Source: Sulfitobacter alexandrii (GTDB lineage Bacteria; Pseudomonadota; Alphaproteobacteria; Rhodobacterales; Rhodobacteraceae). Taken from it: DNA of 64,000 bases. The notes below the pieces were generated by a model that was given only the letters and a program-made list of their open reading frames with translations, was not told where the DNA came from and did not search any database. The translations under genes and the position numbers were made by a program. The first letter of the stretch is position 1. Each line of letters opens with the position of its first letter. Location of the stretch: positions 62,001 through 126,000 of the forward strand of contig NZ_CP018077.1 of assembly GCF_001886735.1 (NCBI RefSeq), given 5' to 3'. Below, in pieces: positions 27,136 through 43,376 of this stretch.

Positions 27136-29186
27136 GGCTGTTTCCTCGCGGTCATGTCGCCGGTGCCGGTCATGGTCAGCGACCAGTGGCGCGGGATCAG
27201 AAGGGTGGTGTATTCCTGTTCGACGATCGCGGGGCCGTCGATCACCTCTCCGGCGGCGAGCGACAGTTGCCGGTGGACGGGCACGTCCGCCCAGGCGCCG
27301 TTGACGTGGACGGGGCGCGTCGCGGTGCTGCGTTTCTCCGAGGGTTCATGGACGGCACCTGCACGGTCGTCCGCGCCCAGCTTTCCGATGGCGACCAACC
27401 GCAGGGTGACAAGCTCCACCGCCTCGGCGGGATCGTCGAAGGAGAACCGCTGGCGGTGCTGTTCCTCGAACCGCGTGCGCAGCGTCGTCAGGGTTTCCGG
27501 CGTGCAGTCGCCGTCGGGCATATCGGTCATCAGCTCGAACGCCTGCCCGCGGTAGCGCAGGTCCGCCGAGAGCCGCAGGACGCGGTTTTCGGGGGCGATC
27601 CCGTCGGTTTCCAGCAGCGCGGCCCCCTGTGCGCGCAGGTCGCCGGCCATGGCCGTCAGCGCCGGCAAGCTATCGGGGGCAAGCGGCAGGATTTCGGTGC
27701 GCGAAAGGTCGTGCTGGATGTCCGAGGACAGGATGCCGTGGGCCGAGAAGGTCGAGGGATCGCAAGGAAAGATCACGCGGGTGATGCCCAGTTCCTCGGC
27801 CACTTCGACGGCATGCACCCCGCCCGCGCCACCGAAGCTCATCAGGGCGAAATCGCGCGGGTCCAGCCCCTTGGCGAACAGGGAAAACTTGATCGAGGCC
27901 GCCAGTTTCGCGTTTACCACGCTGAGGATGCCGGCGGCGGCCCGATCCGTATCGAGGTGCAGCGGTTCTTCCATACGTGTGCGTAGGGCGTTGCGGGCGC
28001 CGTCGATGTCCAGCGCGAACCGTCCGCCGAGGAACGTCGCCGGGTCGAGCCGCCCGAGGATGAGGTTCACGTCGGTCACGGTGGGTTCCTCGCCGCCCCG
28101 CCCGTAGCAGACCGGCCCCGGCACCGCGCCGGCGCTGCGCGGCCCGACCTGAAGCCGCCCCGAGGCGTCGACGAAGGCGATGGAGCCGCCGCCGGCGCCG
28201 ATCGTGTGCATTTCCACCATCGGCACCCGCACTGGCAGGCCGTCGATCTCGCCCTGCGTGACAACGGTGCGCTGGCCGCCGGAGATGACGGCGACATCGT
28301 AGCTGGTGCCGCCCATGTCCACGCCGACGACATCGGGCATGTCGAGCCTGCGGGCGAGTTTCTGCGCCGCCAGCACGCCCCCCGAAGGTCCGGACAGCAG
28401 CAGCTTGACCGGGGCCTGCACGGCGGCGTCGAGGCTGATCGCGCCGCCGTTGGACTGGATCAGGTAGACCGGTGCGGTCACGCCCGCATCGGCAAGCCGG
28501 CGACGTACCGCCCTGACGTAGCGGTCGATCACGGGGACCAGTTGCGCGTTCAGGACGGTGGTTGCGGTACGTTCGAATTCGCGGATCTCGGGCGAGACCT
28601 GATGGCTGCAGGATACCGCCATCTCCGGGCAGCGGGCCAGCAGCGCGTCCCGTATGGCGATTTCGTGCGCCGGGTTCGCAAAGGCGTTGAGCAGGCAGAT
28701 CGCGGTGGCCTCCACGCCGGTGGCCGCGACACGGTTGATCACGGTGTCCAGCGCGCCGGGGTCGAGCGGACGGACCTCGTCGCCTGCCGCGCCGATCCGG
28801 CCCGGCGCCCCGAATCGCCGACGGCGCGGCACCAGCGGGCTGCGGGCCGGACCGCGCAGGGCGTAGATGTCGCGGCGGGCATGGCGGCCGATTTCCAGCA
28901 CGTCCTCGAACCCTTCGGTGGTGATCAGCGCGCCGTCGGGCAGATCGCGGGTGAGCACGGCGTTGGTGGCGATGGTGGTGCCATGCAGGATCAGGCCGAT
29001 GTCGGACAGGGCGAAGCCGAAGCGGTCCGCCGCGAGCAGCAGCGCATCCGCCAGTCCGCGCGCGGGATCGTCAGGGGTGGTCGGAGACTTCAGGCTGTGG
29101 GAAAGGCCCGTCTTTTCGTCGCGCAGTTCCAGATCCGTGAAGGTGCCGCCGATGTCCACGGCGATTGTGATGCGGTTTTGCGGCAT
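27132..29186 (-). CDS. hyuA: Hydantoinase A / 5-oxoprolinase family subunit
   Basis: A 684-residue ATP-binding subunit of the HyuA/oxoprolinase N family. It starts at MPQNRITIAVDIGGTFTD, whose actin/ASKHA-type phosphate loop is conserved; an ATG 48 bases upstream would add a tail with no family counterpart. The segment KSPTTPDDPARGLADAL, then LILHGTTIATNAVL near residue 75, and the hydantoinase-domain GVDMGGTSYDVAVISGG near 290 are typical. It forms a two-subunit enzyme with HyuB. A LysR regulator gene lies directly upstream on the same strand. Confidence 0.88.
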   Translation of the reverse strand: MPQNRITIAVDIGGTFTDLELRDEKTGLSHSLKSPTTPDDPARGLADALLLAADRFGFALSDIGLILHGTTIATNAVLTRDLPDGALITTEGFEDVLEIGRHARRDIYALRGPARSPLVPRRRRFGAPGRIGAAGDEVRPLDPGALDTVINRVAATGVEATAICLLNAFANPAHEIAIRDALLARCPEMAVSCSHQVSPEIREFERTATTVLNAQLVPVIDRYVRAVRRRLADAGVTAPVYLIQSNGGAISLDAAVQAPVKLLLSGPSGGVLAAQKLARRLDMPDVVGVDMGGTSYDVAVISGGQRTVVTQGEIDGLPVRVPMVEMHTIGAGGGSIAFVDASGRLQVGPRSAGAVPGPVCYGRGGEEPTVTDVNLILGRLDPATFLGGRFALDIDGARNALRTRMEEPLHLDTDRAAAGILSVVNAKLAASIKFSLFAKGLDPRDFALMSFGGAGGVHAVEVAEELGITRVIFPCDPSTFSAHGILSSDIQHDLSRTEILPLAPDSLPALTAMAGDLRAQGAALLETDGIAPENRVLRLSADLRYRGQAFELMTDMPDGDCTPETLTTLRTRFEEQHRQRFSFDDPAEAVELVTLRLVAIGKLGADDRAGAVHEPSEKRSTATRPVHVNGAWADVPVHRQLSLAAGEVIDGPAIVEQEYTTLLIPRHWSLTMTGTGDMTARKQP

Positions 29187-29267
29187 GTCCGGGCAGGCTT
29201 TCTGCGGTTTCGTCCGGAACAGCGTTGCAAGCAATCGCTATCAAATCAAATCGAATGTTTTTTAGTC

Positions 29268-30176
29268 TTACGATAAGATATTCTGATCGGTGTGCCGCAG
29301 GGCCGTGCTGTGCGCGAGTTGGGCGGCGGTTTCCACCACGTGGCTTTTCGGATCGCCGAGATAGGAGGCGGTGAATTGAAGCGGGGCAGGGCACCAGCCC
29401 GGATCGAAGCGGCGCAGCTGGCCGCGCGACACCCAGTCCCGGCCGAGGATCTCGGGCAGGGCGGCGACGCCGAGACCGGCTTCGACCAGACGGAAACAGG
29501 CCGACAAGGACGAGGACGAGAAGATCTGCGTGCCCGGCCCCAGCCGTTCGTACAGCGCGCGCCGCATTTCCCGGTTGGGCCGCGTGCCGCGGGCGTAGGT
29601 GATAACGGGATGCCGGGCGATCAGCTCCGCCTGCGCTTCGGGCGCATCGGGCACCGTGTTGGAAACGTACCAGGCGAGGGTGAAGCCGGGCAGGGCGATG
29701 TTGCTGACCGTCGCCTCGGACACCGGGCCGAGCAGGATGGCGAGGTCGATCTCGCGGTCGAGCAGTCTCTGGCGCAGGTTGGTGGAGACGTCGACGTCGA
29801 TCTCGATCTCGACCTTCTTGAACTGGCGGTGCAGGCCGGTGACGAAATCCGGCAGCCATGATTGTGCGACGGTTTCGGCGACACCGAGGCGCAGCTGCCG
29901 TTCGATGCCCTCGGGCGACATGATGTCGGCGGTGACCTGTTCGGTCAGGATCTCGAACTGTTCGGCGTAGCGGACGAGCATGTCGCCCCGCTTGGTCAGG
30001 GTGAGGTGCCCTTCACTGCGCTCGAACAGCGGCACGGCCAGCGTGTCTTCGAGCGCCTTGATCCGGGCGCTGACGGCGGGCTGCGTGATGTTCAGGCTCT
30101 GCGCGGCGCGGCGCATGCCGCCGAGGCGCACCACCTCGAGAAAGGTGCGAAGCTGTTCGATGTTGAGCCGGGTCAT
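29268..30176 (-). CDS. LysR-family transcriptional regulator
   Basis: Regulator of 302 residues. The winged helix-turn-helix is at the N-terminus (MTRLNIEQLRTFLEVVRLGG, then AAQSLNITQPAVSARIKALE). The effector domain follows from about residue 90 (QLRLGVAETVAQSWLPDFVT). I start at MTRLNIEQL; a Met 17 codons earlier gives an unusual extension. It lies between the gamma-glutamyltransferase-like gene and hyuA on the same strand and probably controls hyuAB-TRAP. The 81-base gap before hyuA is AT-rich and could contain its operator, but I cannot define one. Confidence 0.85.
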   Translation of the reverse strand: MTRLNIEQLRTFLEVVRLGGMRRAAQSLNITQPAVSARIKALEDTLAVPLFERSEGHLTLTKRGDMLVRYAEQFEILTEQVTADIMSPEGIERQLRLGVAETVAQSWLPDFVTGLHRQFKKVEIEIDVDVSTNLRQRLLDREIDLAILLGPVSEATVSNIALPGFTLAWYVSNTVPDAPEAQAELIARHPVITYARGTRPNREMRRALYERLGPGTQIFSSSSLSACFRLVEAGLGVAALPEILGRDWVSRGQLRRFDPGWCPAPLQFTASYLGDPKSHVVETAAQLAHSTALRHTDQNILS

Positions 30177-30259
30177 GTGCCGTTCCGTTCGCGCCTGCCG
30201 CTGGTCGGGCGATCCTGCCCGATCCACGGGCAGGCACGCAAGGCCGGGCAGCGCCGCGA

Positions 30260-31843
30260 TCAGTAGCCGACGGCGCAGCCATCCTTGCGATGGTCCGAGC
30301 CTGCGACATAGCCGCCGCCGTGGCGGGCGATCAACTGTGCGCCGCCAAAGCCGAAGCTGTTGTCGGGCGGGTCGTGGACGATCTCGTGCCCCATCTGCTG
30401 CAGGGCCTTCACGGTGGCATCGGGCATCGCAGGCTCGACCGCGACCCGGCGCCCGCTGACGAAACGCCAGCGCGGCGCGTCGCTGGCAGCCTGGGGCGAC
30501 TGGCCGTGCACCATCGTCCGGGTGACCATCTGGACATGGCCCTGCGCCTGCATCGGGCCGCCCATGACGCCGAAGCTCATCTCGGGGCGGCCATCGCGGG
30601 TGACGAAGCCGGGGATGATGGTGTGGAACGGCCGCTTGCGGGGCCCGACTCGGTTCGGATGGCCCGGCGTCGTGGCGAAGCCCGCGCCGCGGTTCTGAAG
30701 GTGGATGCCGGTGCCGGGCACCACGACACCGGCGCCGAAGCCCATGTAGTTCGACTGGATCAGCGAGACCATGCGCCCCGCGGCATCGGCGGCGGTGACA
30801 TAGACGGTGCCGCCGGCACGGGGCGCACCATGCGTGGCGAGGCTGGCCTTGCGCGCGTGGATGAGGGCGGCGCGCTGGCCCAGGTAGGCCGGAGACAGCA
30901 GCGCCTCGGCGGGGGTGGCCATCGCGTCAGGGTCGCCGACGAAGGCTTCGGCATCGGCGAGGCCCAGCTTCACCGCTTCGATCTGCAGGTGCAGGGCCTG
31001 CGGATCGTCCGGGTCCAGCGCGGCGAGGTCGTGGTGCCCGAGGATGCCGAGCGCGATCAGCGCCGCGATGCCCTGGCCGTTGGGCGGGATCTCGTGCAGG
31101 TCGATACCGGCGTAGGACTGGCGCAGGGTGCCGCACCAATCGACATGGTGCGCGGCGAGGTCTTCGGAAGTCAGGGCCGCGCCATGGCGGGCGGACTCCT
31201 GCGCGATCAGCTCTGCGATATCGCCGGTATAGAAGGCGGCGCCGCGGGTGTGCGCGATCCGCTCGAGCGTTTGCGCCAGCGCGGGGTTGCGGAAGGTTTC
31301 GCCGGCCCGTGGCGCCCGGCCGTCCGGCAGGAAGCAGTCAGCGAAACCGGGCTGATCCGACAGGGTGGCGCCGCCCAGCTTCCAGAGCCGCGCGATGATG
31401 GGCGACACCGCGAAGCCGTCGCGGGCGTAGGCGATGGCGGGTGCGAAGAGGTCGGGGAAGGGCAGCGCGCCGAACCGGTCGGACAGGGCGACCCAGCCCG
31501 AGACCGCGCCTGGCACCGTCACGCTTTCCCATCCCCGTTCCGGCATGGTCGACCCTGCGGCAAAGCGGTCTGGCGTCCATCCTGCGGGGGACCGGCCCGA
31601 TGCGTTGAGCCCGTGGAGCGCGGCGCCGTCCCACAGCACCGCGAAGGCATCGCTGCCCAGCCCGTTGCCCGTGGGTTCCACCACGGTGAGCGCGATGGCG
31701 GCGGCGAGCGCCGCGTCCACCGCGTTGCCGCCCGCCAGCAGCATCCGCAGCCCGGCCTGCGCCGCCAGCGGCTGCGATGTGGCGACGACGTTGCGCGCCA
31801 TCAGCGGCGCGCGACGGGACGGGTAGGGCAGTTCGAAGTGCAT
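30260..31843 (-). CDS. Gamma-glutamyltransferase family protein
   Basis: A 527-residue Ntn-hydrolase (GGT/acylase family), made as a precursor that cuts itself before a Thr. The large-subunit opening RNVVATSQPLAAQAGLRMLL and LAGGNAVDAALAAAIALTVV are strongly conserved. The likely nucleophile is the Thr in AGGTVYVTAADAAG, and the LQNRGAGFATTPGHPNRVGP and GVMGGPMQAQGHVQMVTR segments complete the active site. No signal peptide is visible, so it is probably cytoplasmic, unlike E. coli GGT. It heads the minus-strand set with LysR, hyuAB and TRAP, suggesting gamma-glutamyl or amide breakdown feeding 5-oxoproline to HyuAB; this is inference. Confidence 0.83.
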   Translation of the reverse strand: MHFELPYPSRRAPLMARNVVATSQPLAAQAGLRMLLAGGNAVDAALAAAIALTVVEPTGNGLGSDAFAVLWDGAALHGLNASGRSPAGWTPDRFAAGSTMPERGWESVTVPGAVSGWVALSDRFGALPFPDLFAPAIAYARDGFAVSPIIARLWKLGGATLSDQPGFADCFLPDGRAPRAGETFRNPALAQTLERIAHTRGAAFYTGDIAELIAQESARHGAALTSEDLAAHHVDWCGTLRQSYAGIDLHEIPPNGQGIAALIALGILGHHDLAALDPDDPQALHLQIEAVKLGLADAEAFVGDPDAMATPAEALLSPAYLGQRAALIHARKASLATHGAPRAGGTVYVTAADAAGRMVSLIQSNYMGFGAGVVVPGTGIHLQNRGAGFATTPGHPNRVGPRKRPFHTIIPGFVTRDGRPEMSFGVMGGPMQAQGHVQMVTRTMVHGQSPQAASDAPRWRFVSGRRVAVEPAMPDATVKALQQMGHEIVHDPPDNSFGFGGAQLIARHGGGYVAGSDHRKDGCAVGY

Positions 31844-31919
31844 CAGTGACCCCTTTTCCGGCCGGTCTGGCAAGGCCTCCGAGCGCCGTGGTGGCAGCAC
31901 ATGGCCCGAGCGGTGTCGT

Positions 31920-32342
31920 TCACGCCAGCTTCGACAGCAGGCGCCGCAGGGTTTCGCCGTTCTCGGACTCGAGCAGTTCCATGAGCGCGTGGTCCTGATC
32001 CTCGGCGTCCTGGCGGATCTGCAGCATCCGCCGACGGCCGAGGTTGGTCAGCATGAGGTTTACTTGGCGCTGATCGACGCTGGAAATCTGGCGATGCACG
32101 AGCCCTTCGGACACCATGCGATCCACCAGCTTGCTGAGTGCCGGGGGGTTGAGCAACGCGCGCCGCGCCAGTTCGCCCATGGTCAGACGTTCGTTGCCGT
32201 CAAGACATTCCATCACCCTCCAGGCGGTGACCTGGATGCCGTGCGCCTTGAGCCGGGTGGCCAGTGAGTTGCTGACCGAGCGATGCGCGGCCTCGAGCAC
32301 GTAGGACAGATGGCGTTCGAAGGTGATCGGCTCTTTCGGCAT
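31920..32342 (-). CDS. MarR-family transcriptional regulator
   Basis: Regulator of 140 residues with the MarR winged-helix fold: helices RHLSYVLEAAHRSVSNSLAT, the recognition unit LTMGELARRALLNPPALSKL and the wing DRMVSEGLVHRQISSVDQRQ. The open frame extends far upstream, but MPKEPITFERHL at 32342 is the sensible start. The gene diverges from the AmiC-like sensor gene. The shared 75-base gap carries overlapping promoters and direct repeats, which fits self-regulation and control of the amide operon. Rhodobacterales MarR proteins beside catabolic genes commonly respond to aromatic acids or CoA thioesters. Confidence 0.85.
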   Translation of the reverse strand: MPKEPITFERHLSYVLEAAHRSVSNSLATRLKAHGIQVTAWRVMECLDGNERLTMGELARRALLNPPALSKLVDRMVSEGLVHRQISSVDQRQVNLMLTNLGRRRMLQIRQDAEDQDHALMELLESENGETLRRLLSKLA

Positions 32343-32367
32343 GGGTCCGTCCGGTTGTGGTACAATG

Positions 32368-32405
32368 GGAAAATAGTTGACTTGGAAAATAGTTTCAATT
32401 GGAAT
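32368..32405. promoter_or_regulatory. Overlapping divergent promoters and repeats between marR-like and amiC-like genes
   Basis: Two direct copies of GGAAAATAGTT begin at 32368 and 32384, exactly 16 bases apart. On the minus strand TTGAAA (32398-32393), 17 bases and TATTTT (32375-32370) make a good promoter for the MarR gene. On the plus strand TTGACT (32377-32382), 17 bases and TGGAAT (32400-32405) make one for the sensor gene. The repeats overlap both, as expected for a MarR operator. Confidence 0.6.
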
Positions 32406-32417
32406 GTGCAAATTGCC

Positions 32418-33563
32418 ATGCTGATCCGGGGGAGACGGGCGCTGGGATACACGAAAGAAGATGTCGCGCTGCCGATCGAGCTCGCGGATTACCGCGAGAG
32501 CGGTTTGCTGGTCGCTTCCGGCAGCTTTCGTGTCGCGCTTCTGATCCCCATGTGCGGCCCGGCGGGCATCTGGGCACCGTCCTGCATTTCCAGCGCGCAG
32601 GTCGCGGCGGCGGAACTGAACCGCGGCGACGGGATCGGCGGGCGGCGGGTGCAGCTCATCATGATCGACGCGGCGGTCGAGGCGGACGAGCCGATCGAGG
32701 AAACGGTGAACGACCTGATCGAGCTGAACGCCATCGACGCCATCGTCGGCATGCATCTGAGCGCGGTGCGGCAGCGGCTGTCGAAGGTCGTGCGCCAGCG
32801 TATTCCCTACATCTATACGCCGCTTTACGAGGGGGGCGAGACCACGCCGGGCCTGTTCGCCATCGGCGAAACCCCGAAGGAACAGCTTGCCCCGGCCCTG
32901 CTGGCGCTGCAGGCACGGTACCGCCCGCGTTCCTGGGCGCTGGTCGGCAACGATTATGTCTGGCCCCGCAGTTCTCATTCGCTGGCCAAGAGCATCCTCA
33001 AGGCGTCGGGCGTCGATCTGGCCATGGAACGTTATGTACCCTTCGGTCTGCCGAACATGTCCGACATGGTGGACCGGGTGGAGGCTTCGGGTGCGGAGGC
33101 GGTTCTCGTGTCGCTGGTGGGACAGGACGCCGTCAACTTCAACCGGCAATTCGGCAGGCGGGGGTTGCATCGCAAGGCCGTGCGCCTGTCCTGCGCGCTG
33201 GAAGAGAACGGGCTGATGGCCTGCGGGCGGGGCAACCTTGAGCGGATGTTCTCCGTCTCGTCCTATTTCGGGTCGATCGCGACCGAGGCGAACGCCTGCT
33301 TCAAGGAGCGGTACTACGGGCTGCACGGCGATGCCGCGCCCGCCCTGAACGCGATCGGGCAATCCACCTACGAGGGGATGCATTATCTGTCCGCGCTGCT
33401 GCGGGACCATGGCACCGTCTGGCGTCAGCGGTCGAGCCGGGACATGCTGCCGGTGATTCACGCAAGCGGCAGATCCTACGTCAGGGACGGAGGTCTGAAA
33501 CGGCCCGACATCTACCTGGCGCGGGCGGATGGCATCGCCTTCAGCGACTTCAAGGTACTGTAA
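32418..33563 (+). CDS. AmiC-like amide sensor / urea-type periplasmic-binding-fold protein
   Basis: A 381-residue protein with the type I periplasmic-binding fold (Peripla_BP_5, AmiC/FmdD/UrtA group). The core begins FRVALLIPMCGPAGIWAPSC near residue 37, and QVAAAELNRGDGIGGRRVQL, AIVGMHLSAVRQRL and YIYTPLYEGGETTPG follow. No signal peptide is visible: the N-terminal 36 residues are polar and charged. It therefore looks like a cytoplasmic ligand sensor, as AmiC is for amidase operons, and not a transporter receptor. The predicted promoter places transcription only a few bases before the ATG. It is divergent from marR and first in the amide operon. An AmiR-type antiterminator is not present. 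Confidence 0.72.
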   Translation: MLIRGRRALGYTKEDVALPIELADYRESGLLVASGSFRVALLIPMCGPAGIWAPSCISSAQVAAAELNRGDGIGGRRVQLIMIDAAVEADEPIEETVNDLIELNAIDAIVGMHLSAVRQRLSKVVRQRIPYIYTPLYEGGETTPGLFAIGETPKEQLAPALLALQARYRPRSWALVGNDYVWPRSSHSLAKSILKASGVDLAMERYVPFGLPNMSDMVDRVEASGAEAVLVSLVGQDAVNFNRQFGRRGLHRKAVRLSCALEENGLMACGRGNLERMFSVSSYFGSIATEANACFKERYYGLHGDAAPALNAIGQSTYEGMHYLSALLRDHGTVWRQRSSRDMLPVIHASGRSYVRDGGLKRPDIYLARADGIAFSDFKVL

Positions 33564-33582: not shown

Positions 33583-33623
33583 TCATTTTCCAGTTCAAAC
33601 AATTTACTTGAAATGGAAAATGA
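33583..33623. repeat. Long inverted repeat before the flotillin-like gene, candidate operator
   Basis: Arms TCATTTTCCAGTTCAA and TTGAAATGGAAAATGA (16 bases, one mismatch) flank a nine-base spacer. The half-site TTGAxxTGGAAAAT also occurs in the marR promoter region at 32377, so the MarR protein may bind both places. As RNA it would form a hairpin after the sensor gene, but no T-run follows. Confidence 0.55.
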
Positions 33624-33697
33624 AATCGCTCACCGTCGAGAGAGTGACAGGCCATGGCCCCGCGAGGCGGGGCAGGGCGCGACGGGGAGAAATCATT

Positions 33698-35291
33698 TTG
33701 TACTGGCTATTGGCATGCGTCGTCATCATCGCGGTCCTGCTGTTCGGGATCTGGTTCCTGCAACGATTCTACGCCAAGGCGACGCTGGAAACCGCGTTGG
33801 TCCGCACCGGCATGGGCGACCGACGGGGGCTGTCTGGCGCTGCCGATCGTGCACCAGCTTCAGCGGGTGTCGATGCAGACCGCCGCGGTGACGCTCGCGC
33901 GGACGGGGCGCGAAGCGGTGCTGACCGCAGATGCGCTGCGCGCCGATATCCTGATGGAATTCGAACTGCGTGTCGGATCGGATGCGGCCAGCATCGCCAC
34001 CGCCGCGCAGGCCTTCGGTCACCGGGTTGCGCGCGGCGGTGACGCATTCGAAGAAGTGCTGACCGGGCCGCTGGCCAACGCCGTCCAGACCGCCGCCGCG
34101 GCGCGGGGGATCAACGAGATCCATCTGGAGCGCGCGGCCTTTACCCGCGAAGTGTCGGCAATGGTTGCGGATCACGCCGGCCGGCTGGGGCTGGAACTGG
34201 TCACGGCGGCGCTGGTGTCGGTGGATCAGAGCGATTTCGCGCAGCGCGACGAGAACAACAGTTTCAACGCGCGGGGGATGCGCAGGCTGGCCGAGATGGT
34301 CGCCGAAGAGCGCAAGGCCCGGATCGCGGTCGAGACCAGCACGGAGATCGCGGTGCGCGAGCATCGCCTTGCCCAGCATCAGCGGCAGATCGAACTTCAG
34401 CGCGCCGAGCGGGAAGCGGAGATCGCGCAGCGCGAGCATCTTGCGCGGCTCGAGGCGGAATCCGAAAGCCGTTCGGCACAGTCCCGCGCCGAACAGCATC
34501 GCGCGTCGGAGACCATTCGCATCCGCGAGGAGCAGGAAGCCAGGGCGGCGCAGGTGTCGGCGGACGAGGCGCTGCGCAAGGCCGAGATGAAGGCGCTGCT
34601 GGAACTGGAGGAAGCCAAGATCGCCAACGGCATCCGGCTGGCGCAGTCCCGGGCCAAGGAAGCCAAGGCCAAGGCCGAGGAAGAGGAGGCGCGGGCGCAG
34701 GTGATCCTCGCGGCCGAGAGCGTGCAGGCCCAGAAGGAGCGTGCCGTGACCGAGCGGGAGCGCGAAATCGCCCGGCTGAGGCAGGCGCGCGATCTGGAAC
34801 TGGAGGACGCGCGGGTCAAGAGCGACGTCAGCACGCTGCTGGCGCGGGCGCAGGCGGATGCATCGGCGCGGACCGCGACCGCCAACGCCGAGAAGGCCGC
34901 GATGGAGGCCGAGGCGGCGGGCCGTGCGGCGCTGAACCAGGCCGAGAACACCCTGAGCGACGCGGTTATCCGGATGCGGCTGGAAGAGCGCAAGCTGGAC
35001 CGGATGCCAGAGATCATGACCCAGATGATGAAGCCGGTGGAAAAGATCGAGTCGATCCGCATCAACCAGATCGGCGGCGGCATGGGCGGGTCGCAGGGCG
35101 AGGGCGGGGGCGTCGACAGCGCCTTCGGTGCCGCGATGGACCAGATCCTGGGCATGGCCGTGCGCCTGCCCGCGATGAAGCAGATGGGCGAGGAGATCGG
35201 ACTGGATTTCGACGTCGCCAACGCGGGGCGCACCGCCGATTACGCCAACCGCATCAAGGCCAAGGACGACCCCAAGACACCCAAAGAGTGA
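33698..35291 (+). pseudogene. Flotillin-like (SPFH domain) gene with a frameshift
   Basis: The N-terminal part (frame from TTG 33698 behind GGGGAG, or ATG 33620) encodes a membrane anchor, LYWLLACVVIIAVLLFGIWF, and YAKATLETALVRTGMG. The rest of the family sequence, DGGCLALPIVHQLQRVSMQT onward, continues one base out of phase. Only four bases (33818-33821) stand between the two parts, where relatives have about five or six codons, so a short deletion is likely. Downstream the SPFH domain, a long Glu/Ala/Arg coiled coil (residues about 220-430) and a C-terminal tail appear intact. Flotillins scaffold membrane microdomains. A sequencing error or an extra G in the G-run at 33825-33829 is also possible. 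Confidence 0.7.
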
Positions 35292-35334: not shown

Positions 35335-36555
35335 ATGTCTCTGAACAGAAGAGAATTGCTTGGCGGTGCCGCCGCCCTGACCACGGCGGGCCTGCTGCCA
35401 CGGGTGGCGCTGGCCGCCGACACGATCCGGCTGGGGTCCATCCTCGACCAGTCCGGCCCCTTTGACGCCTACGGCAAGCCGATGGCGATGGCGACGCAGC
35501 TTGCCGTGGCCGAGATCAACGAGGCCGGTGGCCTTCTGGGCCGCGAGGTCGAGGTGGTGGCCTATGACACCCAATCCGACATGGCGCTTTATTCGCAGTA
35601 CGCGCAGCAACTGACCCGGCAGGACAGGGTCGACGTGGTGCACGGCGGCATCCTCTCCGCCTCGCGCGAGGCGATCCGCCAGACCATGCGCAAGACCGGC
35701 ACGCTGTATTTCTACAACGTGCTTTACGAGGGCGGTGTCTGCGACCGCAATATCTTCATCAACGGGGTGACACCGGCACAGCAGGTCGAGGCGCTGGTGC
35801 CCTACGCGATGAACAACTCGGGCAAGAAGGTCTATATCCTCGCGGCGGATTACAATTACGGCCAGATCACCGCCCGCTGGATCGAGAAATTCGTGCGCGA
35901 CAACGGTGGCGAAGTGGTGGGCACCGATTTCTTTCCGCTGGACGTGAGCGATTTCGGATCGACCATCGCCAAGGTTCAGACAGCCGCGCCCGACCTCGTC
36001 ATCGCGCCGCTGGTGGGCGGGCCGCACCTGTCGTTCTTCCGCCAGTGGGCCGCGGCAGGCATGAAGGACAAGATCGCGCTGGCCTCCACGACGCTGGGGG
36101 TGGGCAACGAGCACAAGGTGCTGACCCCGGAAGAAGGCAACGGGATCATGTGTGCCTACAACTACAGCCAGGAACTGGACACGCCCGAGAACCGGGAATT
36201 CATGGCGCGGTGGGCGGCGATGTTCGACGGGGACCAGTCGATGCACGAGATCGCGGTGTCGCATTACCATGGCCTGCATACATGGGCGGAAGGCGTGCGC
36301 AAGGCCGACAGCATAGAGCGCGAGGCCGTGATCGAGGCGCTGGAGACGGGGGTTTCGATCACCGGGCCGGGCGGCAAGGTGACGGTCGATCCGCAGACCC
36401 ACCATGCCATTCTGGATGTGCACCTGATGGAGATGCGCGACCAGAAGATGGCGGTCATCGAAACCTTGCCGCAGCGCGCGCCGATCGACACGCAGGCGGT
36501 CTGCGACCTGGGCGCGAACCCCGACGACAACACGCAGTACGAGATCGAGATCTGA
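35335..36555 (+). CDS. Urea/short-chain amide ABC transporter substrate-binding protein
   Basis: Periplasmic receptor of 406 residues (Peripla_BP_5; UrtA/FmdD group). The N-terminus MSLNRRELLGGAAALTTAGL carries a twin-Arg-like signal ending ALA. The mature protein starts DTIRLGSILDQSGPFDAYGK, and DVVHGGILSASREAIR, TGTLYFYNVLYEGGVCDRN and the TTLGVGNEHK segment fit the urea/amide branch. A good GGAGGA site precedes the ATG. It delivers ligand to the permeases encoded directly downstream. It resembles the cytoplasmic sensor at 32418 in fold, so the two probably see the same or related ligands. Confidence 0.86.
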   Translation: MSLNRRELLGGAAALTTAGLLPRVALAADTIRLGSILDQSGPFDAYGKPMAMATQLAVAEINEAGGLLGREVEVVAYDTQSDMALYSQYAQQLTRQDRVDVVHGGILSASREAIRQTMRKTGTLYFYNVLYEGGVCDRNIFINGVTPAQQVEALVPYAMNNSGKKVYILAADYNYGQITARWIEKFVRDNGGEVVGTDFFPLDVSDFGSTIAKVQTAAPDLVIAPLVGGPHLSFFRQWAAAGMKDKIALASTTLGVGNEHKVLTPEEGNGIMCAYNYSQELDTPENREFMARWAAMFDGDQSMHEIAVSHYHGLHTWAEGVRKADSIEREAVIEALETGVSITGPGGKVTVDPQTHHAILDVHLMEMRDQKMAVIETLPQRAPIDTQAVCDLGANPDDNTQYEIEI

Positions 36556-36619: not shown

Positions 36620-37486
36620 ATGGACCTGAGTTTCGTTATCCTTGTCGAGATCCTCTACGCGGTGGCATCGCTGGTGCTGATCAGCGCGGGCCTTGCGGTC
36701 GTGTTCGGCATGATGAAGGTCATCAATCTCGCGCACGGGGAATTCATGATGATGGGCGGCTACGTGACCATCACCGCCGTTGGGCTGGGCGTGAACGTGT
36801 TTGTCGCCATGCTGGTGATCGCACCGCTGATCGTGGGGCTGATCGGTCTGGTGGTCGAACGGCTGGTCATCCGGCACCTGTACGGGCGGCTGGTGGACAC
36901 GATGCTGGCGACATGGGGTCTGAGCCTCGTGTTCATCGGACTGGCGACGATGATCTTCGGCAATACGACGACCGGCATTTCCACACCGATCCCCGGCTTC
37001 GCGGTCGGGGCCTACCAGATCAACGGCTACAATTTCTTCATCATCGTTGTCTCGGTGCTGCTGGTTGCCGGCATGTACGCGGTGCTGCGCGGCACGCGCG
37101 GGGGGCTGATCGCGCGGGGCACGATGCAGCGGGCCGACATGGCCGCCGCACTGGGCTACAGCCCCGACCGCATCTACATGGCCACGTTCTTTTGCGGCTC
37201 GGCGTTGTCGGGGCTGGCGGGCGCGGTGCTGGCGCCGCTGGTGGGGCTGGTGCCGACTTCGGGCGGGGCCTACATCGCCAAGGCGTTCATCACGGTGATC
37301 GCGGGCGGTCCGGCGCTGATCGCGGGGCTTGTCAGCTCCGCCGCGAGCTTTGGCGTCGTCAGCCAGATCTTTACCTTCGCCATGTCACCGGTGATCGGCG
37401 AAGTCGCGCTGCTGGTCGCGGCGGTGATCCTGCTGCGGGCCATGCCGCAGGGCATCACCGCCCGGCTGTTCAGGGGGAAGCTGTGA
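36620..37486 (+). CDS. Branched-chain/urea-type ABC permease (LivH/UrtB-like)
   Basis: Inner-membrane permease of 288 residues with about eight hydrophobic segments. The opening LVEILYAVASLVLISAGLAV and VFGMMKVINLAHGEFMMMGG is the LivH/UrtB signature. Later come VVERLVIRHLYGRLVDTMLA, LATWGLSLV and the cytoplasmic loop RADMAAALGYSPDRIYMATF. The stop shares a base with the next start. It pairs with the LivM-like permease. Confidence 0.88.
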   Translation: MDLSFVILVEILYAVASLVLISAGLAVVFGMMKVINLAHGEFMMMGGYVTITAVGLGVNVFVAMLVIAPLIVGLIGLVVERLVIRHLYGRLVDTMLATWGLSLVFIGLATMIFGNTTTGISTPIPGFAVGAYQINGYNFFIIVVSVLLVAGMYAVLRGTRGGLIARGTMQRADMAAALGYSPDRIYMATFFCGSALSGLAGAVLAPLVGLVPTSGGAYIAKAFITVIAGGPALIAGLVSSAASFGVVSQIFTFAMSPVIGEVALLVAAVILLRAMPQGITARLFRGKL

Positions 37487-38511
37487 TGACGCGGACGGTT
37501 GCGCGCGAAGTCCTGCTGACGCTTGTGGTCTCGGCCCTGCTGATCTGGATCCTGCCGATGCTGATCGGCACCTATACGCTGACGGTGCTGGTGATCTACG
37601 GGATGCTGGGCCTCAGCCTCGGGCTGATCTGGGGCTTCGGCGGGATCCTGTGTTTCGGGCAGGCGGCGTTCTTTGGCCTCGGCGCCTATACCTACGCCAT
37701 CGCGGCGATCAACATCGGGGAAAGCACCCTGCCGATGCTGCTGGCCGTCGCGGTGCCCGCCGTCTTTGCCGCGCTGCTGGGTGCGATGATGTTCTACGGG
37801 CGGCTGGGGGATGTCTATCTTGGCGTGATCACGCTGGTGGTGACGCTGATCCTGTTCAAGTTCGTCAATTCCACCGCCGGGCCGCAATACGCGATCGGAA
37901 ACGCCCGGCTGGGTGGGTTCAACGGCATCCCCGGTTTCCAGACCCTGAATGTTCCGGGCGATCCGGGGGCGTACATCTGGGGCGATCCCTATTTCTACGT
38001 CTGCGCCGTGGCGCTGGTGATCGTGTTCCTGCTGGTCACGTGGCTGTTGCGGTCGTCCTTTGGGCGGGTGGCCGTCGGTATTCGCGAGAACGAGACCCGG
38101 ATGGGGCTGATGGGCTACGACGTGGCGGCGCGCAAGACGGTGCTCTTCGCCATCGGTGCTGCCATCGCGGGGCTGGCGGGGGCGCTGTTCGCCAACTGGG
38201 CCGAGATCGTCACGCCGAACCTGTTTTCGCTGGGGCAGTCGGCCGAGATCATCATCTGGTGCATCGTCGGCGGGCTGGGCACCCGGATCGGGCCGATCCT
38301 TGGGGCGGCGGGGCTTGCCTATCTCAAGTTCCTGCTGGGCCAGCAGAGCCTGATCGACAACACGCTGATCACCGGGCTGATCCTTGTGCTTTTCGTGCTG
38401 TTCCTGCCACGTGGACTGGCGCCCGCCGTGGCGGCGCTGATCCGTGCCGTTTTTGGCCGCGCAGGGCGCAAGCCGGATCTCCGCCGGATGCGGAGGGTGC
38501 GGCATGGCTGA
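37486..38511 (+). CDS. Branched-chain/urea-type ABC permease (LivM/UrtC-like)
   Basis: Second permease, 341 residues, starting at the ATG that overlaps the LivH-like stop. The longer open frame upstream is only an overlap with that gene. Landmarks are GMLGLSLGLIWGFGGILCFG and QAAFFGLGAYTYAIAAIN near residue 60, RVAVGIRENETRMGLMGYDV near 200 and the C-terminal WCIVGGLGTRIGPILGAAGL. About nine to ten membrane segments. The C-terminal tail is Arg-rich. Its end overlaps the next gene by eight bases. Confidence 0.88.
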   Translation: MTRTVAREVLLTLVVSALLIWILPMLIGTYTLTVLVIYGMLGLSLGLIWGFGGILCFGQAAFFGLGAYTYAIAAINIGESTLPMLLAVAVPAVFAALLGAMMFYGRLGDVYLGVITLVVTLILFKFVNSTAGPQYAIGNARLGGFNGIPGFQTLNVPGDPGAYIWGDPYFYVCAVALVIVFLLVTWLLRSSFGRVAVGIRENETRMGLMGYDVAARKTVLFAIGAAIAGLAGALFANWAEIVTPNLFSLGQSAEIIIWCIVGGLGTRIGPILGAAGLAYLKFLLGQQSLIDNTLITGLILVLFVLFLPRGLAPAVAALIRAVFGRAGRKPDLRRMRRVRHG

Positions 38512-39220
38512 GACGGTGCTGGAAACCCATGGGCTGACCATGCGGTTCGGCGGGGTGACCGCAAGCGACAACGTGGACTTCAAGCTGAAATCCCGCGAAC
38601 TGCGCTGCCTGATCGGGCCGAACGGGGCGGGCAAGTCGACCTTCTTCAAATGCGTGACAGGGTTGCTGACCCCGACGGAGGGCCATGTCTTCATGCGCGG
38701 GCAGGAGGTGACGGGGTGGCAGCCGCACCAGATCGCGGCGCTGGGAGTCGGGATCAAGACCCAGACGCCCAATGTGCTGGACGCGCTGAGTGTGCACGAG
38801 AACATCTGGCTGGCCGCAAGACGGTTTCATCCGGTGGCGGAGGCGCGCGCGCGCACCGACGAGATGATTGCGCGGCTGGCGCTGGGAAACATCGCCCGCA
38901 CCCCGCTTGGGGAGCTGGCCCACGGTGAACGGCAGCGGGTGGAACTGGGGCTGGTCGCGGTCGCAGACCCTTGGCTGGTGCTGCTCGACGAACCCGCGGC
39001 GGGGATGAGCGCGCAGGATGTGGAACGGATGACCGCGATCATCCACGACCTGACCCGGACGGCGGCGGTGGTGATCGTCGAGCACGACATGCAGTTCATC
39101 CGCGCCATCGCGGACCGGGTGACGGTGTTTCATCAAGGCGCGGTCCTCATGGAGGACCACGTGGACCGCGTGATGTCCGATGCCCGGGTGCGGGCTGTCT
39201 ACCTCGGGAAGAAAAGCTGA
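38504..39220 (+). CDS. Branched-chain/urea-type ABC ATPase (LivG/UrtD-like)
   Basis: ATPase of 238 residues. Walker A is GPNGAGKST near residue 37, the Q-loop KTQTPNVLDALSVHEN near 85, the signature LAHGERQRVELGLVAVADP near 140 (LAHGE is the UrtD/LivG variant) and Walker B LVLLDEPAAGMSAQDVERM near 160, with the His switch VIVEHDMQFIR. It starts at ATG 38504 inside the end of the permease gene. The stop shares a base with the start of the ATPase-amidase fusion. Confidence 0.87.
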   Translation: MAETVLETHGLTMRFGGVTASDNVDFKLKSRELRCLIGPNGAGKSTFFKCVTGLLTPTEGHVFMRGQEVTGWQPHQIAALGVGIKTQTPNVLDALSVHENIWLAARRFHPVAEARARTDEMIARLALGNIARTPLGELAHGERQRVELGLVAVADPWLVLLDEPAAGMSAQDVERMTAIIHDLTRTAAVVIVEHDMQFIRAIADRVTVFHQGAVLMEDHVDRVMSDARVRAVYLGKKS

Positions 39221-41601
39221 TGGATCAGGACGAAGAAGCGCTGCTGTCGGCCCATGGCCTTTCGGGCGGCTATGGCCGGGTGCCGATCCTGCATGGGATC
39301 GATCTGGATGTCGCGGCGAACGAGGTCGTCGGCGTGCTGGGGCACAACGGCATGGGCAAGACAACGCTGCTGAAGACGCTGATGGGGTTCCTGCCGCCGA
39401 CCGCCGGGCGGGTCCGGTTCGGCCAGACCGACATCACCCGCCTGCCGCCCAACGAACGCGGGCGGCTGGGGCTGGGCTATGTCCCGCAGGGGCGGGGCAT
39501 CTTTCCGCAGTTGTCGGTGCGCGACAACCTGCGCTTTGCCTGGCATGACTACGGCGCCGGCACCGAAGCGGAGGTGATGGAAAGCGTGCTGGCCGATTTC
39601 CCGCGCCTGACCCGGTTGCTGGACCGCGACGGCGGGGCGCTGTCGGGGGGCGAACAGCAGCTTCTGTCGCTGGCGCGCTGCCTGATGGGCGACCCGGCGT
39701 TCCTGCTGCTCGACGAGCCGACGGAGGGCATCCAGCCGTCGATCATCGAGGAGATGGCCGAGACGTTGCTGAGCCTGCGGGACAAGCGCGGTCTGTCGAT
39801 CCTGCTCGTGGAACAGAACTTCGACTTCATCTCGGATCTGTCGGACCGGGTGTTGGTGCTGGAGCGGGGCCGGATCACCGGCACCCTGAGCCGGGCCGAT
39901 TTGTCGGACAGGACGAAGGTGGACAGCTTTCTTGGCTTCGGCGCCGCACGCGCCACGCGCGGCGGTCCCGGCACCACACCCGGCCCCGCGCGGCGCGCGG
40001 GCCAGCCCGATGTGCCGCCGCCCCCAGATATGCGCCAGCCGCGCGCCGCGCCCGAGCTCCCCTCAACATTTGCATCAACGGTGACTTCAATGACCATCAG
40101 ACGCCCCACCCTCGCCCAGATGCGCAGCATGGCCGACCGCTTTGGCATGTCGCTGTCGGACGCGGACCTGCAGGAATACACCGAGATCATCGAGCCCTAC
40201 ATGCAGGCCTATGATCGGCTGGACGCCATGCCCGACAACCTGCCGGAGGTCCGGTATCCGCGCAGTCCGGGGCATTTCCCGTCGCCTTCCGAGAACCCGA
40301 TGAACGCATGGTACGTCAAGACGGAGGTGCGCGGGGCGCCGGACGGACGGTTGCGCGGCAAGCGGATCGCGCTGAAGGACACGATCTGCCTCGCCGGGGT
40401 GCCGATGATGAACGGCTCGTCCATCATGGAAGGCTACACGCCCGAGATCGACGCCACCATTGTCACCCGGATGCTGGACGAGGGCGCAGTGATCGCCGGC
40501 AAGGCGCATTGCGAGAACTTCTGCCTGTCGGGCGGATCGCACACCAACGCCAAGGGGCCTGTGCACAACCCGTGGAAGCGCGGCTACATGGCCGGCGGAT
40601 CATCGTCGGGCTCGGCGGCGCTGGTGGCAGCGGGCGAGGTGGACATGGCCATCGCCGGGGACCAGGGCGGGTCGATCCGTATCCCGTCATCGAACTGCGG
40701 CTGCTACGGGATGAAACCCACCCACGGACTGGTGCCCTATACCGGCGCGATGGGGGTCGAACAGACCATCGACCACCTTGGCCCGGTCACGAACACGGTG
40801 GCCGACAACGCGCTGCTGCTCGAAGTGCTGGCGGGCGAAGACGGTCTGGACCCGCGCCAGTACAAGCCGAAGGTCTTCAGCTATACCGAGGCGCTGGGGC
40901 GCGGGGCGCAGGGCATGCGCATCGGCATCCTGAAGGAAGGCTTCGGGCACCCCAACTCGGAAACGGATGTAGACCAGAAGGTGTTGCAGGCGGCGGAGCG
41001 GTTCCGCGATCTGGGCGCGCGGGTCGAAGAGGTGTCGGTGCCCGAGCATCATGTCGCGATGGACGCCTGGACCGCGATCACGCTGGAGGGGCTACAGGAC
41101 GGGATGATGTGGGGCAATTCGACAGGCACCAACTATCGCGGGCTGTTCCTGCCGTCGATGACGGACCACATGGCGCAGTGGCGCGGCCGGGCCGACGAGC
41201 TGAGCCATTCGCTGAAGACCTGCATGTTCGTGGGCGAACATTTCCAGCGCCAATACCGGGGGCGTTTCTACGGCAAGGCGCAGAACATCATGCGGCGCTG
41301 CAACGACCGCTATCTTGCCGCATTGAAGCAGTACGACCTGCTGCTGATGCCGACCCTGCCGATCAAGCCGCAGCCGCACCCGCCCGCCGACAGTTCGCTG
41401 AGCTTGTATGTTCAGCGGGCGTTTGAGATGGTGGCGAATACCGCGCCGTTCAACGGTGGCCTTCCGGCGATGAGCCTGCCCTGCGGCCTTGCCGAGGGGT
41501 TGCCCATCGGGATGATGCTGGTCGGACCGCACTACGGCGAGATGAAGATCTACCAGGCCGCCCATGCCTTTGAACAATCGGGCGACTGGCGCAGCATGTG
41601 A
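39220..41601 (+). CDS. Fusion of ABC ATPase (LivF/UrtE-like) and amidase
   Basis: One uninterrupted frame of 793 residues. Residues 1-245 are a complete LivF/UrtE ATPase: Walker A GHNGMGKTT near 40, signature LSGGEQQLLSLARCL near 141, Walker B FLLLDEPTEGIQP near 160, ending SFLGFGA. Residues 246-290 form a Pro/Ala/Gly/Arg-rich linker. Residues 291-793 are a complete signature amidase: catalytic Lys in ALKDTICLAG, cis-Ser in GGSSSGSAAL, nucleophile Ser in GDQGGSIRIPSS. An internal ATG (40090) where the amidase would normally begin lacks a visible ribosome site, favouring one polypeptide, though loss of a stop codon and internal initiation cannot be excluded. The amidase would act cytoplasmically on the imported amide as it leaves the transporter. 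Confidence 0.82.
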   Translation: MDQDEEALLSAHGLSGGYGRVPILHGIDLDVAANEVVGVLGHNGMGKTTLLKTLMGFLPPTAGRVRFGQTDITRLPPNERGRLGLGYVPQGRGIFPQLSVRDNLRFAWHDYGAGTEAEVMESVLADFPRLTRLLDRDGGALSGGEQQLLSLARCLMGDPAFLLLDEPTEGIQPSIIEEMAETLLSLRDKRGLSILLVEQNFDFISDLSDRVLVLERGRITGTLSRADLSDRTKVDSFLGFGAARATRGGPGTTPGPARRAGQPDVPPPPDMRQPRAAPELPSTFASTVTSMTIRRPTLAQMRSMADRFGMSLSDADLQEYTEIIEPYMQAYDRLDAMPDNLPEVRYPRSPGHFPSPSENPMNAWYVKTEVRGAPDGRLRGKRIALKDTICLAGVPMMNGSSIMEGYTPEIDATIVTRMLDEGAVIAGKAHCENFCLSGGSHTNAKGPVHNPWKRGYMAGGSSSGSAALVAAGEVDMAIAGDQGGSIRIPSSNCGCYGMKPTHGLVPYTGAMGVEQTIDHLGPVTNTVADNALLLEVLAGEDGLDPRQYKPKVFSYTEALGRGAQGMRIGILKEGFGHPNSETDVDQKVLQAAERFRDLGARVEEVSVPEHHVAMDAWTAITLEGLQDGMMWGNSTGTNYRGLFLPSMTDHMAQWRGRADELSHSLKTCMFVGEHFQRQYRGRFYGKAQNIMRRCNDRYLAALKQYDLLLMPTLPIKPQPHPPADSSLSLYVQRAFEMVANTAPFNGGLPAMSLPCGLAEGLPIGMMLVGPHYGEMKIYQAAHAFEQSGDWRSM

Positions 41602-41612
41602 GGAGATTTCGG

Positions 41613-43376
41613 ATGACAATCCTGAATGAAAGCATCGCCGGTCGCATCCAGAACTTCGGTCTGGAAGACGGCGTGGCGGAAACCGCCGCCGACCTCGCGC
41701 CGCAGGACGGCAAATCCTACGCGAAAGGGGGCGCGCACCCGCCGCTGGCCTTTGCCACGATCCCGCAGTTGCTGCGCGACGCGGTCGCCCGGTATGGCCC
41801 GCGCGACGCGCTGGTCTTTCCGGGATCACGGCTGAGCTATTACGATCTGGACCGGGCGGTGGATGCGCTGGCATCCGGTCTGCTGGCGATGGGGCTGACC
41901 AAGGGCGATCGGCTGGGCATCTGGTCACCCAACCGGCTGGAATGGGTGCTGACCCAGTTCGCCACGGCGCGGATCGGGGTGATCCTTGTGAACATCAACC
42001 CGGCCTATCGCCTGTCCGAGCTGGAGTACGCGCTGAACAAGGTCGGCTGCAAGGCGCTGGTGCTGGCGCGGTCCTTCAAGACGTCGAACTACGTCGAGAT
42101 GCTGCGCGCTCTCGCGCCCGAACTGGACAGCAGCGAGAAGGGCCGCCTGCGCGCCGCGCGCCTGCCGCAGTTGCGGCACGTGGTGGTGATGGGTGATGCG
42201 GCGGACGAAAAGGGAGTCTGGAGTTTCGGGGAGGTGTCGAACCTCGGCGGTCCCGCGCAACAGCTCCGCCTGCCCGAGATCGACCGTACGCTGCAGCCCG
42301 ACGAGGCGATCAACATCCAGTTCACGTCGGGCACGACGGGCCAGCCCAAGGGGGCGACGCTGTCGCATTACAACATTCTCAACAACGGGCGTTTCGTGAC
42401 CGACCGCATCCGGTTGACCGAGAACGACCGGCTGGCGATCCCGGTGCCGCTGTATCACTGCTTTGGCATGGTGATGGGCGTTTTGGGCGCGGTCAGCAAG
42501 GGCGCCGCGATGGTGTTTCCGGGCGAAGCCTTCGACCCCGACCAGACGCTCGATGCGCTGGCCGCCGAAAGCTGCACCGCGCTCTACGGCGTGCCGACCA
42601 TGTTCGTCGCGATGCTCCAGAAGCTGGACGAGGTGCCGCGCGACCTGTCGTCGCTGCGCACCGGCATCATGGCGGGTGCCCCCTGTCCGGTGGACGTGAT
42701 GAAGCGGGTGAACGACCGGATGAACATGAAGGAGGTCACGATCTGCTACGGCATGACCGAAACCTCGCCGGTCTCCTTTCAGAGCTTCGTGGACGACACC
42801 CTGCGCCAGCGGTGCGAGACGGTGGGCCGGGTCCATCCGCATCTCGAGGTCAAGATCGTCGACGAGGACGGCCAGATCGTACCGGCGGGGGTTCAGGGCG
42901 AACTGTGCACGCGCGGTTATTCCGTGATGAAGGGGTATTGGGACGACGACGCGCGCACCGCCGAGGCGATCCGCGACGGCTGGATGCACACGGGCGATCT
43001 GGCGGTGCTGGACGAGGAAGGTTTCTGTTCGATTACCGGGCGGGTGAAGGACATGATCATCCGCGGGGGTGAAAACATCTATCCGCGCGAGATCGAGGAG
43101 TTCCTGTACGGCCATCCGGACATCAGCGACGTGCAGGTCTTTGGCATCCCCGACGACAGGCTGGGCGAGGAGGTCTGCGCATGGGTGATCCCGAGGCGGA
43201 ACAGCGCGCTGACGCCCGAGGCGGTTGTGGCCCATTGCCAGGGCAATATCGCCCATTTCAAGGTGCCCCGTCACGTGCGGATCGTCGAGGAATTGCCGAT
43301 GACGATCACCGGCAAGCCGCAGAAGTTCGTCATGCGCGACCGCATGGTCGAGGAACTGGGCCAGCAGGGCGGGTAG
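41613..43376 (+). CDS. AMP-dependent acyl-CoA synthetase (FadD-like)
   Basis: Adenylate-forming ligase of 587 residues that joins a carboxylic acid to CoA with ATP. Motifs are the phosphate loop FTSGTTGQPKGATLSHYN, the adenine-binding CYGMTETSP, the hinge region GWMHTGDLAVLDEEGFCSIT and GRVKDMIIRGGENIYPREIE, and the C-terminal catalytic Lys in MTITGKPQKF. AGGAG precedes ATG 41613; a GTG 15 bases earlier is possible. It follows the fusion gene by 11 bases and would activate the acid released by the amidase. Substrate chain length is not evident. Confidence 0.87.
   Translation: MTILNESIAGRIQNFGLEDGVAETAADLAPQDGKSYAKGGAHPPLAFATIPQLLRDAVARYGPRDALVFPGSRLSYYDLDRAVDALASGLLAMGLTKGDRLGIWSPNRLEWVLTQFATARIGVILVNINPAYRLSELEYALNKVGCKALVLARSFKTSNYVEMLRALAPELDSSEKGRLRAARLPQLRHVVVMGDAADEKGVWSFGEVSNLGGPAQQLRLPEIDRTLQPDEAINIQFTSGTTGQPKGATLSHYNILNNGRFVTDRIRLTENDRLAIPVPLYHCFGMVMGVLGAVSKGAAMVFPGEAFDPDQTLDALAAESCTALYGVPTMFVAMLQKLDEVPRDLSSLRTGIMAGAPCPVDVMKRVNDRMNMKEVTICYGMTETSPVSFQSFVDDTLRQRCETVGRVHPHLEVKIVDEDGQIVPAGVQGELCTRGYSVMKGYWDDDARTAEAIRDGWMHTGDLAVLDEEGFCSITGRVKDMIIRGGENIYPREIEEFLYGHPDISDVQVFGIPDDRLGEEVCAWVIPRRNSALTPEAVVAHCQGNIAHFKVPRHVRIVEELPMTITGKPQKFVMRDRMVEELGQQGG

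Follow-up and report, generated by a model that had tools for sequence, protein, structure and literature searches.

How many proteins does a gene make when an ABC transporter ATPase and an amidase share one reading frame? The question is raised by a stretch of 64,000 nucleotides of Sulfitobacter alexandrii (contig NZ_CP018077.1, positions 62,001 to 126,000; the window), in which a single open frame on the forward strand (39220–41601, ATG at 39220, TGA at 41599–41601) encodes an ATPase–amidase fusion of 793 amino acids. The reading that we favor, and hold to be probable, is that adjacent genes of an amide-uptake operon fused through the opening of their spacer, that the amidase kept its ribosome-binding site, and that tethered and free amidase would both be made. 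We regard this internal start as the most interesting feature of the fusion.

Domains of the fused gene

The frame is divided as follows.

39220–39942, forward strand: ABC ATPase domain, LivF/UrtE-like, residues 1–241
39943–40089, forward strand: in-frame linker rich in Pro, Ala, Ser and Thr, residues 242–290, hypervariable in length and sequence
40080–40084, forward strand: Shine–Dalgarno (SD)-like GGTGA, five bases before the ATG at 40090, complementary to UCACC of the 16S rRNA tail
40090–41601, forward strand: amidase-signature enzyme, residues 291–793, start codon ATG at 40090–40092

The N-terminal domain matches Pfam ABC_tran (residues 24–168, 109.1 bits) and carries a Walker A motif (GHNGMGKTT), a signature motif (LSGGEQQ), a Walker B motif (LLLDEP) and a Gln at the switch position. 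Assignment to UrtE proper (TIGR03410) was rejected at 254.3 bits, below the equivalog cut-off of 285.8, and the domain is accordingly described only as LivF/UrtE-like. The C-terminal half belongs to the Pfam Amidase family (PF01425; residues 369–775, 299.8 bits, cut-off 27), matches NCBIfam PRK07235 from residue 291 to 792 (profile positions 1–505 of 506, 755.8 bits, cut-off 545) and aligns with PDB entry 3a1k over residues 5–496, with the Lys/Ser/Ser motifs matched. K386, S461 and S485, the expected catalytic Lys/cis-Ser/Ser triad (we presume their individual roles in amidase catalysis), are invariant in an alignment of 74 rows picked from 240 listed protein matches, as are the key ATPase motif residues. 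Pfam, PRK07235 and the triad agree with a preliminary description of the locus, which had recognized a whole LivF/UrtE-type ATPase and a whole Ser-Ser-Lys amidase in one frame. Its estimate of about 45 residues for a Pro/Ala-rich linker was also close, the linker of this gene measuring about 49–52.

Among 23 independent close pairs, the ratio of nonsynonymous to synonymous change (dN/dS) is 0.10 for the ATPase, 0.58 for the linker and 0.05 for the amidase core, the low values indicating strong constraint on both halves. An AlphaFold model of middling quality (pLDDT 66.7, pTM 0.51), used for the linker only, places residues 240–291 below a pLDDT of 50, which agrees with a flexible tether.

Distribution of the fusion and conservation of the open frame

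The preliminary description had proposed looking for the same fusion in other genomes, and there it was found. A protein search with the window's fusion gave 120 of 120 listed matches with both domains (78–88% identity, the window's own apart), and a second search, started from a distant fused relative that the hit list names Minwuia, gave another 120 of 120, for a total of 240 of 240; each listing holds the best 120 of about 7900–8000 scored proteins. Named genomes were also scanned, yielding 193 relatives, and the best 80 of these were all fused without interruption (80/80); they include members of Sulfitobacter, Ruegeria, Phaeobacter, Roseibium, Hoeflea, Nitratireductor and Sneathiella. Counting the window's own genome each time, the fused gene is present in 22 of 248 genomes of the family sample, 11 of 385 of the class sample and 1 of 398 of the phylum sample, where the window's own is the sole fused genome. 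The fusion is common among the sampled Alphaproteobacteria and occurs in many marine and soil bacteria, and public records mostly name it just 'amidase': the 96%-identical gene on plasmid pTHAF37_e of Sulfitobacter sp. THAF37 is annotated as a single 793-aa coding sequence (CDS) of that name. Annotation can conceal a fusion and a second product. Two loci from metagenome-assembled genomes, labeled Halieaceae (L046) and Chloroflexi (L113), were rejected as cases beyond Alphaproteobacteria: they resemble alphaproteobacterial loci (85% and 70% identity, respectively), and their contigs are probably mis-binned.

The locus comparison, for which a row had to match the amidase at 40% or better across more than 430 residues, with some genomes represented twice, comprised 157 rows before L173: 113 fused, 20 split, 23 without an adjacent ATPase and 1 at a contig end. 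Omission of identical rows left 101 distinct fused loci, with linkers of 37–90 residues from the aligned ATPase end to Met291. Their linkers contain no in-frame stop in 5425 codons, against 122 and 63 in the other frames and 107 in shuffles, a zero that is partly circular, since one open frame was the definition of 'fused'. A fairer test is provided by loci from whole-genome searches, where stops show; they comprise 33 fused rows, 5 split rows and 2 others. Across 1876 linker codons, the fused rows contain no stop, compared with 37 from shuffles (minimum 21 in 300), and shuffling leaves a mean of 13 of the 33 rows open, with a maximum of 21. Likewise, the 80 named loci have 0 stops in 4186 linker codons, compared with 83 from shuffles. 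The five split whole-genome rows sit outside the fused clade of the quick amidase tree described below, and the fused clade of either amidase tree contains no split row. From the absence of linker stops and of split rows within the fused clade, it follows that read-through is kept by selection; judged by these reading frames, the fusion is genuine and conserved. The linker dN/dS of 0.58 and the single-CDS annotation of the THAF37 gene likewise speak for one protein.

These counts also bear on the idea that the two enzymes are made separately, the open frame being accidental or an assembly error. Split operons do exist, as the 20 split rows attest. Against it stand the stop-free linkers of the 33 and 80 fused rows, for which shuffles yield 37 and 83 stops, together with independent assemblies, one of them a complete plasmid sequence that carries the gene as a single 793-aa CDS. 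Stop counts and assemblies rule out a chance frame or an assembly error, and we give the idea almost no credence at this locus; for the family, it is very unlikely.

A conserved start signal before the amidase

The preliminary description saw no start signal before the amidase. That claim does not hold: GGTGA at 40080–40084 and the ATG at 40090 are present, the 16S tail with UCACC was found in the same genome, and the nucleotides are conserved in relatives. Fifteen conserved Met columns were compared in 80 loci, thinned to below 86% DNA identity from the 101. Pairing with the anti-SD sequence before Met291 was −6.72 kcal/mol, against −3.55 after synonymous randomization (z −13.5, 0/200), whereas none of the other 14 columns fell below z −2.5.

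Codon choice points in the same direction. We set apart a near set of 64 thinned loci and a distant set of 17 loci by identity (66.6%) and not by tree, so that L115 and L116 are counted as near, although the tree groups L115 with the distant loci. Codon −4 relative to Met291 specifies ten amino acids in the near set, yet its third base is G in 60 of 64 loci; the mean over 81 variable columns is 0.31, and the next highest reaches 69%. At −3, GTG encodes 47 of the 50 Val residues, compared with a median of 0.41 over 39 Val columns and a next highest value of 75%. In the distant set, Arg occupies −4 in 12 loci, mostly close kin, and is AGG in all of them, against 43 of 780 Arg codons in that set (these 12 included). 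The SD strings themselves vary by lineage over differing peptides: AAGGAGG over KEAY, CAGGAGG over QEAIY, GAAAGG over ERMSY and GGTGA over TVTS.

Several observations weigh against a working internal start. Met291 is absent from 6 of 240 listed fused proteins (2 Val, and 4 Lys in a long-linker group), ATC replaces ATG in 1 of 101 DNA loci (L061; its relative L215 keeps ATG), and 8 of 80 loci have no in-register SD word. The window's own SD is modest at −6.0 kcal/mol, a value reached by 27% of 2303 internal ATG controls; taken by itself it is unremarkable, and the case for an internal start therefore rests on conservation. Two control Met columns deviate in the opposite direction (z +5.7 and +7.0), which makes the null imperfect. 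A reversed 16S tail also beats randomized codons (z −6.9 and −3.9), less strongly than the true tail (−11.4 and −8.5), and purine richness therefore explains part of the pairing signal. In addition, 2.1% of 751 five-base blocks of the open frame match the SD core in conservation, and the loci, being of common ancestry, are not independent events.

Could the amidase then be tethered throughout, the SD-like bases before Met291 being an idle relic of the ancestral start? The split homologues have a genuine start at that place, and the six proteins without the Met and the modest SD of the window fit such a relic as well. A relic should, however, drift at the ordinary synonymous rate, but in the 23 close pairs the five SD core bases were substituted in 3 of 115 cases, against 443 of 1415 in linker blocks. 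The synonymous divergence (pS) of residues 286–290 is 0.165, compared with 0.29–0.39 for other segments, and lineages keep differing SD strings. On balance, we consider an idle relic unlikely.

A further possibility is that the element pauses the ribosome at the domain border, allowing the ATPase to fold before the amidase, with no initiation. Pausing at internal SD-like sequences has been proposed and is disputed, and the position of the element, at the linker end by the domain border, would suit it. Pausing requires no ATG, but Met is retained at position 291 in 234 of 240 proteins; nor does it require a fixed spacing, but the distance from SD to ATG is 4–9 nt in 71 of 80 loci and clusters at 8 nt (51/80). 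We therefore regard pausing without initiation as improbable.

An internal start thus remains our preferred reading. Start codon, SD, proper spacing and selection on nucleotides are found together, with exceptions in 6 of 240 proteins and 8 of 80 loci. On this pattern of conservation, an internal ribosome-binding site and ATG is maintained by selection on the nucleotides, and the gene probably yields a free amidase of 503 residues besides the fusion protein.

Four fused proteins of 850–869 aa (P0141, P0150, P0164 and P0188) carry Lys in place of Met291, a natural loss of the internal start at that position.

Split homologues and the origin of the fusion

Within the 20 split rows, the ATPase stops no more than a few residues from position 241 in 12, from which the end of the ATPase domain was set; it is of the same type with another end in 3, and of a different LivF type in 5. 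The spacer between ATPase and amidase measures 10–372 bases. L212 likewise has a different LivF-type ATPase, and in six loci (L034, L131, L137, L138, L146 and L212) a related amidase lies behind such an ATPase; the flanking transporter genes, where compared, are also less similar. The amidase has thus had more than one importer as its partner. Most split and lone amidases are preceded by a strong SD (median −9.1 kcal/mol; 34 of 43 rows scored, with an ATG near the aligned start). In Paracoccus methylovorus (L214, 8597–8601), the ATPase and amidase genes lie in the same frame, three bases apart, with one stop between them, an arrangement close to the fused state.

The fused amidases form one clade both in a quick tree of 84 rows, obtained from 150 by thinning at 88% identity (SH-aLRT 95), and in a careful tree of 52 rows (98/93; 98% of 200 bootstrap trees), for which 17 fused rows were removed from the 84, along with 15 rows set aside for their length, loose placement or unknown state. 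In an ATPase tree of 62 rows, the fused label takes two changes, because of a distant long-branch ATPase in six split loci, and a single fused clade is not rejected (AU p 0.43). As the ATPase tree is compatible with one clade but does not show it, a single origin rests on the amidase trees. The split ATPases ending where the linker starts, the SD of the split amidases and the single fused clade together argue that the spacer turned into the linker, and this most likely happened once.

The importer operon

The neighboring genes, all on the forward strand, are listed below.

38504–39220, forward strand: second ABC ATPase, LivG/UrtD-like, with His at the switch position; the likely partner of the fused ATPase (profile matches, switch residue)
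37483–38511, forward strand: permease 2, LivM/UrtC-like (Pfam BPD_transp_2)
36620–37486, forward strand: permease 1, LivH/UrtB-like (Pfam BPD_transp_2)
35335–36555, forward strand: periplasmic binding protein (top-ranked solved structure 8tg1, followed by urea-binding proteins and, lower, AmiC)
33608–35291, forward strand: flotillin/SPFH gene (Pfam Flot and Band_7), N-terminal part and remainder in two frames
32283–33563, forward strand: AmiC-like ligand-binding protein (Pfam Peripla_BP_6; PDB matches 8tg1, urea-binding proteins and AmiC)
41613–43376, forward strand: acyl-coenzyme A (CoA) ligase, AMP-binding, ATG at 41613 behind GAGGAG (profile matches)

The ATG of the fused gene at 39220 shares one base with the stop of the preceding ATPase gene. 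A binding protein, two BPD_transp_2 permeases and two ATPases in one operon make up a complete HAAT-type importer, which bears out the earlier view of the fused ATPase as part of an importer. That each importer contains two fused subunits, as was also supposed, does not fit the separate LivG-type ATPase. This partner has EHD, with the switch His, in 95 of 95 fused rows with enough flank, and the fused ATPase has VEQ, with the switch Gln, in 112 of 113 rows; in the other such ATPases of this genome, Gln likewise accompanies an LSGGEQQ-type signature, and His accompanies the other signature type. With His in the partner and Gln in the fused ATPase, one fused subunit per importer is expected, and the importer more likely holds one fused and one plain ATPase.

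Flanks were counted in 96 fused loci with long flanks and in 17 split loci, all of at least 6 kb, 5 of them with another transporter type. A flotillin gene lies upstream in 87 of 87 fused loci with at least 6.5 kb of upstream sequence, and in 0 of 17 split loci; in the layouts drawn, it is directly 5′ of the binding-protein gene. The acyl-CoA ligase, whose start spacing is identical in Sulfitobacter sp. THAF37, follows in 89 of 91 fused loci (exceptions L193 and L206), with one weak match (33%) in the 17 split loci. Because the fused loci are one clade, both co-occurrences represent one shared history and not many events.

Proposed mechanism

In the scheme that we propose, the HAAT-type importer (binding protein, two permeases, and LivG-like and LivF-like ATPases) would take up a small amide, the amidase would cleave it to ammonia and a carboxylic acid, and the ligase of the downstream gene would convert the acid to a CoA ester. 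The binding protein and the gene set suggest a small amide as substrate; no paper on the substrate was found in the open-access literature. The ancestor would have had a LivF ATPase and an amidase as neighboring genes, the spacer of which became an open in-frame linker. Ribosomes starting at 39220 would read through to give an 85-kDa protein, with the amidase flexibly tethered at the cytoplasmic face of the importer, and the retained ribosome-binding site and ATG (40080–40092) would give a free amidase of about 54 kDa from the same mRNA. This free subunit may pair with the tethered one as an amidase dimer on the importer. Such dimerization is presumed from the Rhodococcus enzyme, and with the one fused and one plain ATPase expected per importer, a free subunit could complete the dimer. 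A single codon change could test this stoichiometry of one tether and a two-subunit enzyme. That the fusion couples uptake to hydrolysis is plausible. Detection of separate ATPase and amidase polypeptides, which the preliminary description took as refuting the fusion, is not a clean test, since long and short products are both expected.

A more elaborate version, which we put forward tentatively and lean slightly against, is that of a two-product gene in which tethered and free amidase dimerize and the co-inherited flotillin clusters importers and CoA ligase in membrane patches, so that a membrane-bound station for uptake and hydrolysis arises; the old gene would here be nested and not replaced. 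A conserved internal start offers a route to gene fusion without loss of the free enzyme, and the co-occurrence of flotillin offers a way to test whether bacterial flotillins unite nutrient uptake and metabolism.

Relation to known systems

The amidase of PDB entries 3a1i and 3a1k, which we take to be that of Rhodococcus sp. N-771, and PRK07235 are homologous to the window's enzyme over residues 5–496, a span that takes in both the N-terminal part and the Lys/Ser/Ser motifs; the PDB enzyme stands alone, whereas that of the window follows an ATPase and a linker. The LivF/UrtE ATPases of HAAT importers for branched-chain amino acids, urea or amides share the ABC motifs and an operon with LivG, LivH, LivM and a binding protein. 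Unlike them, the window's ATPase scores below the UrtE cut-off and carries a C-terminal amidase. Split HAAT–amidase operons, such as that on p1 of Paracoccus methylovorus, have the identical order of binding protein, permease, permease, ATPase, ATPase and amidase, but the ATPase and amidase genes are separate, flotillin is absent (17/17) and no close CoA ligase was found in those checked. AmiC and AmiR act in amide-induced operons; in the P. methylovorus operon, AmiC-like and ANTAR genes lie behind the amidase, as in such operons.

No description of an ABC ATPase–amidase fusion was found in the open-access PubMed Central (PMC) literature, as judged by titles and the starts of abstracts among the matches listed. 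The endolysin CTP1L (PMC4777826), Cas11b (PMC11899642) and two-polypeptide endolysins (PMC9430671) are reported as cases in which a single gene gives two in-frame products, a long protein and a C-terminal one that begins at an internal start. None of the three is a transporter, and the short product predicted here would be a whole, formerly separate enzyme.

Further observations in the neighborhood

The flotillin gene of the window is in two frames near its start, where it lacks 14 bp relative to the intact copy on the THAF37 plasmid; it may be a gene broken in this strain or an assembly error. The AmiC-like protein (32283–33563) has about 80 N-terminal residues outside its domain, and inspection by eye showed no obvious signal peptide. 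Several fused and split loci have a homologue upstream of the operon, and the protein is possibly a cytoplasmic amide sensor. Genes for a gamma-glutamyltranspeptidase, a LysR regulator and hydantoinase/oxoprolinase A and B (25489–31900, reverse strand) adjoin the amide operon and possibly serve another amide or lactam nitrogen pathway. At L193 (G083:C28, 8324–11307), another amidase gene, with 55% identity to that of the window, comes directly after the fused gene, and there is no CoA ligase.

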